A stretch of 64,000 nt of DNA from Hymenobacter jeollabukensis (GTDB lineage: Bacteria; Bacteroidota; Bacteroidia; Cytophagales; Hymenobacteraceae), in assembly GCF_005771675.1 (NCBI RefSeq), contig NZ_VAJM01000002.1:496001-560000 (forward strand), in the 5' to 3' direction. The notes below the pieces were generated by a model. It searched no databases. It saw only the letters and a program-made list of their open reading frames with translations, and was not told the origin of the DNA. A program made the translations under genes and the position numbers. Positions within the stretch are counted from its first letter, which is position 1, and every line of letters starts with the position of its first letter. Shown in pieces: positions 28,710-33,725 of this stretch.

Positions 28710-29438
28710 CTACCGGTGCATGTACTGGCGCCGGGCCAGCTCCTGGCTGGGCCGGGGCGCCTTCGGGTGGGCCTCCAGCAGCGCCAGCACCAGCGCGGGC
28801 GTGAGCTGGGTGAAGTCCTTGATGACCATCATCGGCGCCTGAAACTGCCGGGCCGCCAGCGTAGTGCCGACGGCTACGCAGCGCATCCCGCCCCGGTAGG
28901 CCGCCTGCTCGCCCAGCAGGGCGTCTTCGAAGACCACGCAGCGCTCCGGCGGCATGCCCAGCTTGCGGGCCGCCACGGCGAAGGTGTCGGCGTGGGGCTT
29001 GCCCCGGTCCACGTCGTCCTTGCCGACGATGACGTCGAAGTGGCGGCGCAGGTCGAGGTGGTCGACGATGTAGCCGATGGTTTCGGCACCCGAGCCGGTG
29101 CCCAGGGCCAGTCGGAAGCCGGCGGCGCGGGCCGCTTCGAGAAACCGGGTGAGACCGGCCAGCTCCCGGCGCTTGTCCCAGTAGAGCACCCGGTAGAGGA
29201 ATTCGCGGCGGTCGGCGTACTGCTTCAGCTCCTTATCGGGCACCGGGCTTCGGAAGACAGTTTTGAGGATGGTGGTGGCGGGCATCCCGTTGAGCCGCCG
29301 CAGCAGGGGCAGGGCTTTGGTGGTCAGGCCCAGCTCGCGGAACAGCAGCTGGAAGGCGCGGGCCTGGTAGCGGGTATTGTCGATGAGCACGCCGTCCATG
29401 TCGAAGATGAGGGCGTGGTCGGAAGCAGCGAGGGGCAT
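28710..29438 (-). CDS. HAD-superfamily phosphatase (beta-phosphoglucomutase-like)
   Basis: Motif I IFDMDGVLIDN carries the nucleophile and acid/base aspartates. The cap is helical (FQLLFRELGLTTKALPLL). Motif II is LALGTGSGAET, motif III VGKDDVDRGKPHADTF and motif IV VVFEDALLGEQAAYRGGM, so it should be an active subclass I enzyme of 242 residues. The likely substrates are small sugar or nucleotide phosphates; the exact one is not readable. The C-terminus is basic (SQELARRQYMHR). Confidence 0.87.
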   Translation of the reverse strand: MPLAASDHALIFDMDGVLIDNTRYQARAFQLLFRELGLTTKALPLLRRLNGMPATTILKTVFRSPVPDKELKQYADRREFLYRVLYWDKRRELAGLTRFLEAARAAGFRLALGTGSGAETIGYIVDHLDLRRHFDVIVGKDDVDRGKPHADTFAVAARKLGMPPERCVVFEDALLGEQAAYRGGMRCVAVGTTLAARQFQAPMMVIKDFTQLTPALVLALLEAHPKAPRPSQELARRQYMHR

Positions 29439-29452
29439 GGCGGGCGGATTAT

Positions 29453-29544
29453 GTAGAGGCGCGACCCATCGCGTCTCAATCGTTGAACGGCGACAACGGA
29501 ACGATGACCGTTTAACGACGAGACGCGATAGGTCGCGTCTCTAC
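29453..29544. repeat. Pair of inverted REP palindromes, downstream side of the RAYT gene (REP family 1)
   Basis: GTAG at 29453-29456 heads a stem AGGCGCGA/TCGCGTCT with a CCCA loop (29457-29476). An inverted second copy (stem 29521-29540) has its GTAG on the minus strand at 29541-29544. Between them the tails GTTGAACGG and CCGTTTAAC are nearly complementary, so the whole unit can form one larger cruciform (a REPIN/BIME arrangement). Confidence 0.85.
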
Positions 29545-30101
29545 CGGTATAGGCCTTCGCCGTTGTCCCATTCCTTTTCCCAGCGGCTGGGGTTGGTGAC
29601 GATATAGTGACGGATACGGGTCAGTTCGTGGGCCGAGCGGATTATACGGTCGTGGAAGCGGGCCTGCCACTGAAACGGCAGGCCGTGCATACGGGCAAAG
29701 GTGGTTACGCCGGATTTAAAGCCGCGCAGCACGGAGGCCAGGTTCTCGCGCTGTGGGCCGAAGCGGTTGGCATACGGCAACGGCGTGTCGTCGGGCGTCG
29801 GTTTGTCAAACAGCAACACGCCGTGTAGGTGGTCGGGCATCAGCACGAAAGCATCCAGCGTGGCAAACGGTGCGAACTGCGGAATGCTGGCCCAGCCCGT
29901 CAAGACCCGCTTGCCCAGCGGAGTGGGGCGTACAATAGCGGCTGCCCAGTCGTGGCCGGGCACTTCTACCGTGCCGAAGTGGGGCTGCCGGCCTTGCGTA
30001 CAGATGGTTACGAAATAGGCCCCGCTCTGCCCGTAATCATAACCGGCCAGCCGGGTAGAGGGGACACGGTAGCGCCCCTGAAATAACTCGTCACTAAGCA
30101 T
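29541..30101 (-). CDS. REP-associated tyrosine transposase (RAYT, Y1 HUH type)
   Basis: The 186-residue protein belongs to the IS200/RAYT-like Y1 transposase group, single-strand nucleases that cut beside palindromes. The HUH motif is PDHLHGVLLF (His91 and His93). The catalytic tyrosine is probably Tyr166 in RIRHYIVTNPSRWEKEW, a stretch typical of RAYTs. GQSGAYFVTICTQGR near residue 25 is the family start. The ATG at 30101 (MLSDELFQGRY) is chosen. REP copies with GTAG heads lie on both sides, and the TAG stop (29543-29541) is part of the GTAG of the adjacent REP. All catalytic residues seem intact, so it may be active or domesticated. Confidence 0.9.
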   Translation of the reverse strand: MLSDELFQGRYRVPSTRLAGYDYGQSGAYFVTICTQGRQPHFGTVEVPGHDWAAAIVRPTPLGKRVLTGWASIPQFAPFATLDAFVLMPDHLHGVLLFDKPTPDDTPLPYANRFGPQRENLASVLRGFKSGVTTFARMHGLPFQWQARFHDRIIRSAHELTRIRHYIVTNPSRWEKEWDNGEGLYR

Positions 30102-30206
30102 AGCAGAAAAATAATGTAGCGCCGCAAGCCATAGCGCCGCGTCGGAGGATGGTAAGTTGTTAGCTGACTTCAAGCTAATCAACGATAACAACCTCAGCAA
30201 CGATTG

Positions 30207-30230
30207 AGACGCGATGGGTTGCGTCTCTAC
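30207..30230 (-). repeat. REP palindrome upstream of the RAYT gene (REP family 1)
   Basis: A stem of 8 bp (30207-30214 with 30219-30226, one wobble), a TGGG loop and a minus-strand GTAG head at 30227-30230. It lies between the RAYT start and the pafA-like gene, near a TAACTTTG box at 30251. Confidence 0.85.
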
Positions 30231-30311
30231 ACGGTTGCGGGTTTGGGCCGTAACTTTGGCGGCCCCGATTGACTGTCAGCTCCTCGAGGCCCGCTTACCA
30301 CCGTTCCGATT

Positions 30312-32039
30312 ATGCGAAATACCTTCCTGACGGGCCTGCTGGCCGCCGCCGCCCTGCTGAGCGGCCCGGCGGCTTCGGCCCAGAAAACCAAGCCCCTGCC
30401 CCGCCCCAAGCTGGTGGTGGGCATTGTGGTGGACCAGATGCGCTACGACTACCTCTACCGCTACTGGAACAAGTACGGCGCGGACGGCTTCCGCCGCCTG
30501 CTCGGCGAAGGGTTCAGCTTCGAGAACTGCCACTACAACTACGTGCCCACCTACACCGGGCCGGGCCACGCCAGCATCTACACCGGCACCACGCCCAGCA
30601 CCCACGGCATCATCGGCAACAACTGGCTGGTGCGCGAGGCCGGCAAGGCCACCTACGTGACCGAGGACAACACCGTGCAGGCCGTGGGCGGCACGGCGGC
30701 GGCCGGGCAGATGTCGCCGCGCCACATGCTGACGACCACCATCACCGACGAGCTGCGCCTGGCCACGAATTTTCAGGCCAAGACCATCGGCGTGTGCATC
30801 AAGGACCGCGGCTCCATTCTGCCGGCGGGCCACGCCGCCTCGGCCGCCTACTGGTTCGACAACGCCAACGGCGCCTTCATCACCAGCACTTTCTACACTT
30901 CGCAGCTGCCCGAGTGGGTGCAGCAGTTCAACGCCCGCAAGCTGCCGCAGCAGTACCTGAGCAAGCCCTGGGAGCCGCTGCTGCCGCTGGCCGCCTACAC
31001 CGAAAGCACCGCCGACGACGTGGCCTGGGAAGCGGCCTTCCGCGGCGAGCAGAAGCCGGTGTTTCCGCACAACCTGCCGGTGCTCAGCGGCGTGGCGCCG
31101 GCCCAGGCCCCCGCGCCCGCGCCCACCGGCGGCGAAGCCCCGGCCACGGCCGCCGCGGCCAACCTCGACGTCATCCGCTCCACGCCCTTCGGCAACACGC
31201 TCACCCTGGACTTCGCCCTCGAAGCTATCCGGGCCGAGCAGCTCGGCCAGCGCGGACAAACCGACTTCCTGGCCCTGAGCTTCAGCAGCACCGACTACGT
31301 GGGGCACCAGTTCGGGCCGAACGCCATCGAAACCGAGGACACCTACCTGCGCCTCGACCGCGACATTGCCCGCCTGCTCAAGGCGCTGGACCAGACCGTG
31401 GGCAAGGGCCAGAGCCTGGTGTTCCTCTCGGCCGACCACGGCGCGGCCCACTCGCCGGAGTTTCTCAAGAGCCAGCGCATTCCGGCCGGCTCGGTAGGCC
31501 CCCGGCTCTGGCGCGACTCGCTGCAGGCCCGGCTGGTGCGCCGCCTCGGCCCCGGCCAGTGGGTGCTCAGCTACGAAAACCAGCAGGTGTACCTGAACCG
31601 CCCGCTCATCGCCCAAAAGAAGCTCGACCTCTACCAGGTGCAGCAGGCGGTGGTGGAGCTGGCAGTGCAGTTTACCGGCGTGTCGCGGGCCATTGCCGCC
31701 ACCGATTTGCAGAAGTCGCACTGGGAGAGCGGCTTGCTGATGTACCTGGAAAACGGCTACCTGCCCAGTCGCTCGGGCGACGTGATGGTGGTGATGGAGC
31801 CCGGCTGGCTGGAGTCGTACGCCTACCCGGTGAACAAGGGCACCACCCACGGCTCGTCGGGTGCGTATGATACCCACGTACCGCTGCTGTTCTGGGGCTG
31901 GCGCGTGCCGCAGGGCGAGTCGGCATTTCCGGCGCGGATTACCGATATTGCACCGACGGTAGCCCGGTTCCTTCATATTCAGGAGCCCGACGGCTGCACC
32001 GGGCAACCCCTGCAGGACGTGCTGACCAAGAAAAAATAG
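30312..32039 (+). CDS. PafA-type alkaline phosphatase
   Basis: The product has a signal peptide (MRNTFLTGLLAAAALLSGPA) and the phosphodiesterase/alkaline phosphatase superfamily core: VVDQMRYDYL (metal Asp41), PTYTGPGHASIYTGT with the likely nucleophile Thr near residue 80, SSTDYVGHQFGPN (Asp and His ligands), FLSADHGAAHSPEF and THGSSGAYDTHVPLLFWG. PafA is a periplasmic, phosphate-insensitive phosphatase common in Bacteroidota, and 575 residues is close to its usual length. Ala/Pro-rich sequence (PAPTGGEAPATAAAA) forms an insertion in the middle. A TAACTTTG box at 30251 is a plausible promoter. Substrate range is inferred. Confidence 0.87.
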   Translation: MRNTFLTGLLAAAALLSGPAASAQKTKPLPRPKLVVGIVVDQMRYDYLYRYWNKYGADGFRRLLGEGFSFENCHYNYVPTYTGPGHASIYTGTTPSTHGIIGNNWLVREAGKATYVTEDNTVQAVGGTAAAGQMSPRHMLTTTITDELRLATNFQAKTIGVCIKDRGSILPAGHAASAAYWFDNANGAFITSTFYTSQLPEWVQQFNARKLPQQYLSKPWEPLLPLAAYTESTADDVAWEAAFRGEQKPVFPHNLPVLSGVAPAQAPAPAPTGGEAPATAAAANLDVIRSTPFGNTLTLDFALEAIRAEQLGQRGQTDFLALSFSSTDYVGHQFGPNAIETEDTYLRLDRDIARLLKALDQTVGKGQSLVFLSADHGAAHSPEFLKSQRIPAGSVGPRLWRDSLQARLVRRLGPGQWVLSYENQQVYLNRPLIAQKKLDLYQVQQAVVELAVQFTGVSRAIAATDLQKSHWESGLLMYLENGYLPSRSGDVMVVMEPGWLESYAYPVNKGTTHGSSGAYDTHVPLLFWGWRVPQGESAFPARITDIAPTVARFLHIQEPDGCTGQPLQDVLTKKK

Positions 32040-33550: not shown

Positions 33551-33701
33551 CAACCTGGCCCAACGCGTTGCCCCGTTGGCTGCGCTGGTCTTCGATTGTT
33601 GACGCTGTTTTGCTAGCGTCGGCGCGCCTACTCCGCGCGTGGGTGTTGATGGTGGGCTGTCAGAGTGGCGTTGGCTATTCGGTCATAATCGTTCAACGAC
33701 G

Positions 33702-33725
33702 AGACGCGAAGGGACGCGTCTCTAC
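33702..33725 (-). repeat. Isolated REP palindrome (REP family 1)
   Basis: A 7-bp stem AGACGCG/CGCGTCT (33702-33708 with 33715-33721) with a minus-strand GTAG at 33722-33725 and the tail CGTTCAACGAC. It is about 3.5 kb from the RAYT locus and shows the family has spread. Confidence 0.8.

Follow-up and report, generated by a model that had tools for sequence, protein, structure and literature searches.

A RAYT gene flanked by REPINs of its own REP type in a Hymenobacteraceae genome

The 64,000 nt stretch of DNA analysed here (the window) contains what is in all likelihood a REPtron: one RAYT gene with a REPIN of its own REP type on either side, and more REPs and REPINs of that type across the genome, a reading that takes in the arrival and spread of the system. 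A sequence-only reading of the window had proposed a RAYT with cognate REPs, and this was borne out: the RAYT structure 4er8 was the best match of the protein by fold and by profile, and REPs were present at 30/30 related loci. The accompanying hint of novelty for Bacteroidota was wrong, as TnpAREP proteins with REPs have already been published in Bacteroidetes, according to the accessible part of PMC6006769, and the kind of system is therefore known. The added value of our analysis is comparative, and lies in the strict pairing of RAYT and REP type, the probable recent arrival of the RAYT, and one site that suggests the rewriting of REPs in place.

Four copies of the 25-mer GTAGAGACGCGACCCATCGCGTCTC (two mismatches or fewer) begin in the window at 29453, 29520, 30206 and 33701, whilst none was seen in 100 dinucleotide shuffles of the window (chance expectation 0.00), in agreement with the claim that GTAG-footed palindromes lie on both sides of the RAYT gene. 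Each of the four REPs folds into a hairpin with a stem of 7 to 9 pairs, GTAG at its foot and the GTA unpaired (-7.1 to -11.2 kcal/mol, z -4.3 to -6.0). The RAYT gene (29541..30101, minus strand) encodes a TnpAREP-like Y1 HUH transposase of 186 aa. On its 3' side, the inverted pair described earlier at 29453-29544 consists of an outer REP at 29453..29477 (plus strand, GTAG head at 29453), with one mismatch that changes a stem A to G and leaves a G-T pair, and an inner REP at 29520..29544 (minus strand, one mismatch). The two REPs enclose a 42 nt spacer (29478..29519) of class BB, with a B-type arm (TCGTTGAACG-like) at each end. The RAYT gene takes its TAG stop codon from the GTAG of the inner REP, an overlap also seen at loci L033 and L042.

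The palindrome reported on the 5' side at 30207-30230 is indeed present, as a REP at 30206..30230 (minus strand, one stem mismatch), but its description as a single copy did not hold. It forms the outer member of an inverted pair; the degenerate inner member, GTAGCGCCGCAAGCCATAGCGCCGC, lies at 30116..30140 on the plus strand, retains 18/25 positions and was placed by reference to the REPs found upstream of the gene in relatives. This degenerate REP is 14 nt upstream of the RAYT ATG, near the position that an intact REP occupies in most relatives. The spacer between the two halves (30141..30205) carries an A-type arm (AATCGTTGCTGAGGTTGTT) adjoining the outer REP, and from 30232 onward the sequence again matches that of the sister genome G002. 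The degenerate partner places the RAYT gene between two REPINs, and defines the unit as 29453-30230. Both flanking REPINs are imperfect, and the present activity of the system is thus only putative. The further copy expected near 33702 is a single intergenic REP at 33701..33725 (minus strand), with two mismatches, a shortened stem and an adjoining B-type arm (GTCGTTGAACG).

Counted from the ATG of the 186 aa CDS, the catalytic motif of the protein is His91-Leu-His93 with Tyr166, confirming the residue numbering that had been assigned to the Y1 HUH protein. Both histidines, the tyrosine, and the asparagine and proline that follow the tyrosine were invariant in 28/28 aligned proteins (Y1 HUH site HxH, YIxxNP). 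The fold predicted by AlphaFold2 had a mean pLDDT of 77, and its first Foldseek match in the PDB was 4er8, a RAYT bound to its REP hairpin, which we take to be the E. coli protein (E 2.9e-6, prob 1.00, TM 0.49/0.55, rmsd 9.9). A profile built from 28 relatives and searched against PDB sequences also found 4er8, the only match at E 0.01 (E 1.3e-4). A Pfam-A search of the window protein gave no match up to E 1, and its score against the NCBIfam model NF047646 was 54.7 bits, under the curated cut-off of 80, which bars the annotation label but not the kinship. Fold, profile and, weakly, NF047646 support the classification of the window protein as a RAYT-type Y1 HUH transposase.

The whole-genome search proposed in the sequence-only reading, for GTAG plus stem and for RAYTs, yielded 15 copies of the 25-nt REP (three mismatches or fewer; 6.18 Mb in 27 contigs), none of the reversed pattern, and one RAYT match. 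These comprise the 29453 pair, five outward-facing pairs elsewhere in the genome and three copies that stand alone. The five pairs and the 29453 pair are REPINs, each having two inverse REPs with heads outward and a short spacer, in several copies. One REPIN (G000:C1:730615, positions 1471-1632 of L001) is nested between the 20-base arms (ATATAGCGGTTTCGCGAACG and its complement) of another inverted repeat. The single gene copy, the two REPINs in place of subterminal hairpins, and the short non-coding REPs elsewhere bear on whether the locus is instead an ordinary IS200-type insertion sequence or a MITE-like remnant of one. Such an element would share the same Y1 fold, and the IS608 and ISDra2 transposases were the next-best fold matches after 4er8; with a RAYT as the best match and the genomic layout described, we consider this explanation very unlikely.

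To define the pairing of RAYT and REP type, we used a set of 30 loci, comprising the window and 29 others drawn from 150 match places (one per genome, from the best-scoring genomes), in which weaker relatives and second copies are consequently under-represented. GTAG hairpins of the same superfamily were located at the ends of the gene at all 30 loci, on both sides at 29 and upstream only at L039. A recognisable REPIN was present on each side at 19 of the 30 loci, and on one side at the other 11. The hairpins have the form GTAGAGACGC...GCGTCTC, with GTAGAGACAC...GTGTCTC at L039. GTAG begins 123 of the 125 REPs at these loci (the remaining two begin GTGG and GTAA), a count made with search patterns that partly require GTAG. 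A foot lacking conservation, which the earlier reading had named as evidence against itself, was therefore not what we observed.

Four stem types were distinguished: an 8-pair GA..TC stem with a 4-nt loop (25 nt), a 7-pair stem (23 nt), an AA..TT stem, and a single AC stem. Mapped onto the tree of the 30 proteins, stem type required three changes, the minimum for four types, compared with a mean of 12.7 for shuffled labels. Fourteen additional relatives were then considered, and a superfamily REP was found by the strict pattern in 13; the exception was L284, with none within about 1 kb. Locus L287, one of these fourteen, carries the 23-nt type and sits in a 17-row clade (support 85/92) in which the other 16 rows are of the 25-nt type (49-row tree, unresolved fork), and the three-change count is therefore valid for the 30 rows only. 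Genome G150 contains two RAYTs of the clade, one (L017) with 25-nt REPs at its sides and the other (L287) with 23-nt REPs. At the level of sequence, the comparison establishes the specificity of the RAYT–REP pairing, along with the anatomy and distribution of the system, and the window hairpin is very probably the sequence that its RAYT recognises.

The REPINs themselves have a conserved architecture. Among 84 REPINs examined (duplicates and most loci from L178 on were left out), 73% of the 168 spacer ends carried one of two arms, TCGTTGCTGA or TCGTTGAACG, compared with 0.25% in shuffled spacers. These outward-facing pairs with conserved arms, the GTAG foot and the specificity of the pairing with this RAYT clade are difficult to reconcile with the palindromes being ordinary transcription terminators or mRNA hairpins that lie near a RAYT by coincidence. 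In favour of that explanation, the window copies do form stable hairpins in intergenic positions or at gene ends; an Rfam search over 29300-30400, however, found no family that reached its gathering score, and we regard the terminator explanation as most improbable.

The wider distribution of REPs was assessed in 200 genomes of the family. A RAYT match (E 1e-3) was found in 98 genomes, the 25-nt REP (three mismatches or fewer) in 85 and the superfamily in 141, whilst the reversed superfamily pattern was found in none of the 200. We defined a close RAYT by a score of at least 150 bits, a chosen cut (the next match scored 120), which 41/200 genomes reached. Superfamily REPs were present in 41/41 of these genomes, with a median of 43 copies and a minimum of 3. 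In the 159 genomes without a close RAYT the median was 2 copies, with none in 59 genomes and at least 20 (20 to 92) in 26; it should be noted that the genomes in this comparison of 41 with 159 are not independent of one another, so that its p values overstate the significance. Within the largest genus, the medians were 57.5 copies with a close RAYT (34 genomes) and 8.5 without (82 genomes). The sequence-only reading held that a palindrome equally common in the absence of a related RAYT would count against it; the medians of 43 and 2 differ widely, yet 26/159 genomes keep at least 20 REPs, and abundance therefore needs no resident close RAYT at present.

It was conceivable that the REP-rich genomes were free of RAYTs, but this was rejected. 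We took 20 genomes with at least ten 25-nt REPs and no close RAYT: NF047646 matched 19 of them (E 0.01, 57 places), 13 with a score over the cut-off. The model also matched six of 14 control genomes, one of them over the cut-off, which indicates that the weak places may be other Y1 transposases. Yet no place examined was flanked by the window REP type: neither the 25-nt REP nor a hairpin beginning GTAGAGAC was found at any of 49 of these 57 places, all with distant RAYT-like genes in REP-bearing genomes (50 loci, one place represented twice). Several of these distant places carry different GTAG hairpins of their own. In genome G187, for which the two patterns gave 83 and 56 copies, NF047646 had no match at E 0.01; the assembly comprises ~340 contigs.

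Within the window's own genus, the RAYT and the 25-nt REP were confined to one genome of eight, that of the window. With the window RAYT as query, the seven sister genomes gave no match at E 1e-3, and no 25-nt REP was found in them within three mismatches. The notion that the sisters are REP-free was nevertheless rejected, as BLAST matches led to the 23-nt type: the strict pattern detected superfamily REPs in 4/7 sisters (3 to 14 copies) and none in three, and the sister copies inspected were mostly of the 23-nt type. New observations of our analysis are this restriction of the RAYT and the 25-nt REP to one genome in eight, the superfamily REPs of 4/7 sisters that have no RAYT of the window's clade, the REPIN arms common to different REP types, and the site with a 25-nt REPIN here and a 23-nt one in a sister. 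One orthologous 23-nt REPIN is common to the window's genome and G002 (L138, L131), with changed hairpins, so that the window's genome combines an older, shared REP type with a newer type that accompanies the RAYT.

The nearest relatives of the window RAYT belong to another genus, Hymenobacter (e.g. L017, L018, L019 and L021), and the Hymenobacter rows grouped together without the window protein in 0/200 bootstrap trees. An AU test did not reject the arrangement that groups all 37 Hymenobacter rows to the exclusion of the window protein (p 0.268), so this test gave no significant support for a horizontal origin. No neighbourhood was shared between the window RAYT and any of the 29 other loci (1.15 kb flanks), nor at the protein level with five near relatives, four compared at 2.6 kb and the fifth at 1.15 kb. 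Blocks of shared neighbourhood were seen among the other loci, namely L022-L027, L028-L029 (on one side), L032-L038 (in part) and L039-L045. At the place of the RAYT unit, G002 has 64 bases between two aligned blocks; a clean empty site was not found, as the sisters hold other bases there that are missing from the window.

We favour a horizontal arrival of the RAYT as likely, and the window RAYT is a probable recent arrival. The direction of transfer is inferred: a Hymenobacter-like donor was probably the source of the RAYT and the 25-nt REP type, the recipient genome would have contained older REPINs, mostly of the 23-nt type, and the 25-nt type would have spread in it after arrival. It is also possible, but in our view unlikely, that the RAYT and the 25-nt REP were present in the ancestor of the genus and lost in all seven sisters, with no horizontal arrival. 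That history would fit the outcome of the AU test and the superfamily REPs kept in four of the sisters, which suggest that such a system was once present; it is at odds with the lack of a RAYT match or 25-nt REP, at the thresholds given, in all seven sisters, and with the finding that five of the six own-genome sites compared (33702 and sites 1, 3, 4 and 5) were REP-free in the sisters read.

These six sites were taken from the seven REP sites of the window's genome outside the unit, the single copy on C22 being left out. At sites 1, 3, 4 and 33702, no REP was found in the two to five sisters read per site, and at site 5 (G000:C21:282265) no REPIN was found in four aligned sisters, although no base-to-base alignment of the junctions was obtained. 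A clean target for the single REPINs could accordingly not be defined, sites 1, 3 and 4 having no readable junction. In G002, the intergenic place corresponding to 33702 (L083, C41:97000-97500) contains tandem CTCATTG repeats with CAATGAG upstream, which represent a different repeat family.

The remaining site, G000:C3:7059, holds a 25-nt REPIN in the window's genome. In sister G005 the same site holds a 23-nt REPIN in the same orientation, with the same A and B arms and a degenerate second half. A decayed REPIN occupies the site in G006, nothing is present there in G001 and G004, and no match to the site was found in G003 and G007. In G002 (L258, G002:C11:1782500-1782830) the gap is occupied by an unrelated sequence with CGAACGTTCG motifs. 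From this comparison, most of the 25-nt copies look like additions, and one looks like a change of type in place.

Other observations concern the exchange of hairpins. Two hairpin classes were combined within one REPIN in 8/84 cases; the hairpins differ by one base in L024 and L151, and at several positions in L161 (AATATTTT with GACACTTC) and others. The A and B arms occur with all main hairpin types. In the block L039-L045, which represents one orthologous locus, 23-nt, AA..TT and AC hairpins are found in different species, and this change of stem is an orthoswitch in the sense of PMC3686654, as far as the accessible text defines the term. The C3:7059 site, the mixed-class REPINs, the arms common to different hairpin types and the three stem types at one locus lead us to speculate, tentatively, that the entry of a RAYT with a new REP type may be followed by the exchange, one by one, of the hairpins of old REPINs for the new type, whilst the position and inner arms of these REPINs are kept, and that an orthoswitch may be such a conversion and not a replacement by newly made copies.

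The window RAYT is very probably a domesticated IS200/IS605-like Y1 transposase. By analogy with the biochemistry of the E. coli and Stenotrophomonas RAYTs (PMC8266576, accessible part), it would bind the REP hairpin as single-stranded DNA and read the GTAG at its foot. It may cut near this foot through Tyr166 and join the cut strand elsewhere, resulting in a slow copying of REPINs into intergenic DNA. Binding, cleavage and copying of REPs are putative activities of the window RAYT. In Hymenobacter and its neighbours, the RAYT tree, the hairpin type, the REPIN arms and the orthologous sites can be read together, which bears on the spread of REPs and on the joint change of specificity in a RAYT and dozens of scattered hairpins. 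The 26/159 genomes with 20 to 92 REPs and no close RAYT, beside RAYT-bearing ones, make conversion versus fresh insertion, and the need for a RAYT, testable.

Hairpins of this kind recur beyond the family. Our scan of named genomes covered the best 80 of at least 541 RAYT relatives, retrieved with the seeds MPDH[LVI]HG[LIV] or NLA[SA][VI][LVI]RGFK, which place other classes outside its scope. Amongst these best 80, a GTAG hairpin lay within 400 bases at 66 loci, one beginning GTAGAGAC at 57, and none at 14; farther out, 385 kb of the same 80 loci contained 27 such hairpins, 17 of them GTAGAGAC. Many of the near hairpins in this set fall within the gene itself, among them hairpins of MAGs assigned to Nitrospirae, Omnitrophota, Cloacimonadota, Patescibacteria and KSB1, although such assignments can be incorrect. 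Cyanobacteria may have similar GTAGAGACG hairpins. No statement of a wide recurrence of the GTAGAGACG core was found in the accessible parts of the literature cited here; literature on the string GTAGAGACG was unrelated by title among the matches listed, and none was found that links Hymenobacter with repetitive extragenic palindromes.

Among known systems, the E. coli RAYT (TnpAREP) of 4er8 has in common with the window system the Y1 HUH fold and a GTAG-footed hairpin partner, at 19% identity in the fold alignment. REP stems in the subclass of 4er8 are mostly mispaired, according to the accessible part of PMC6006769, whereas the window REP is a perfect palindrome. The same source describes another counterpart, TnpAREP/RAYT subclass 2.4 (Bertels group 4), which also occurs in Bacteroidetes and has long, GTAG-footed flanking hairpins and a WQ motif. 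The subclass motifs given there are NH[IFV]H, WQ and YIxNNP, and the window protein has DHLH, WQ and YIVTNP; YIxNNP is found in the relatives L040, L042 and L044 (as YIANNP and YIRNNP). An in-frame embedded REP, predominant but not universal in subclass 2.4 by that account, is present between the HUH motif and the tyrosine in the relatives L024 (1819-1843), L029 and L031, but absent from the window gene, which we therefore file as a RAYT near subclass 2.4 and not as a member. The embedded REP of these three relatives is read through with no stop codon, as ETRSVASL, and falls in the loop that joins the HUH strand to the following helix. The window family also differs from subclass 2.4 in having mostly single-footed REPs in outward-facing pairs.

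Inverted REP pairs as a spreading unit tied to a RAYT are likewise the hallmark of REPINs as presented in the accessible parts of PMC3116915 and PMC8049555. In the latter, as far as its accessible text goes, RAYTs are vertically inherited and were not observed on plasmids, whereas the distribution in our data is suggestive of transfer, and relatives occur in two plasmid records. The REP orthogroups and orthoswitches of Pseudomonas and Stenotrophomonas (PMC3686654, in part) likewise feature orthologous RAYT loci with different REP types, and REPs without their RAYT. The mechanism of the orthoswitch is described in that text as only open to speculation, and in the model outlined there old REPs decay while new ones spread; in the genome studied here, by comparison, one old REPIN site appears to have been re-typed in place.
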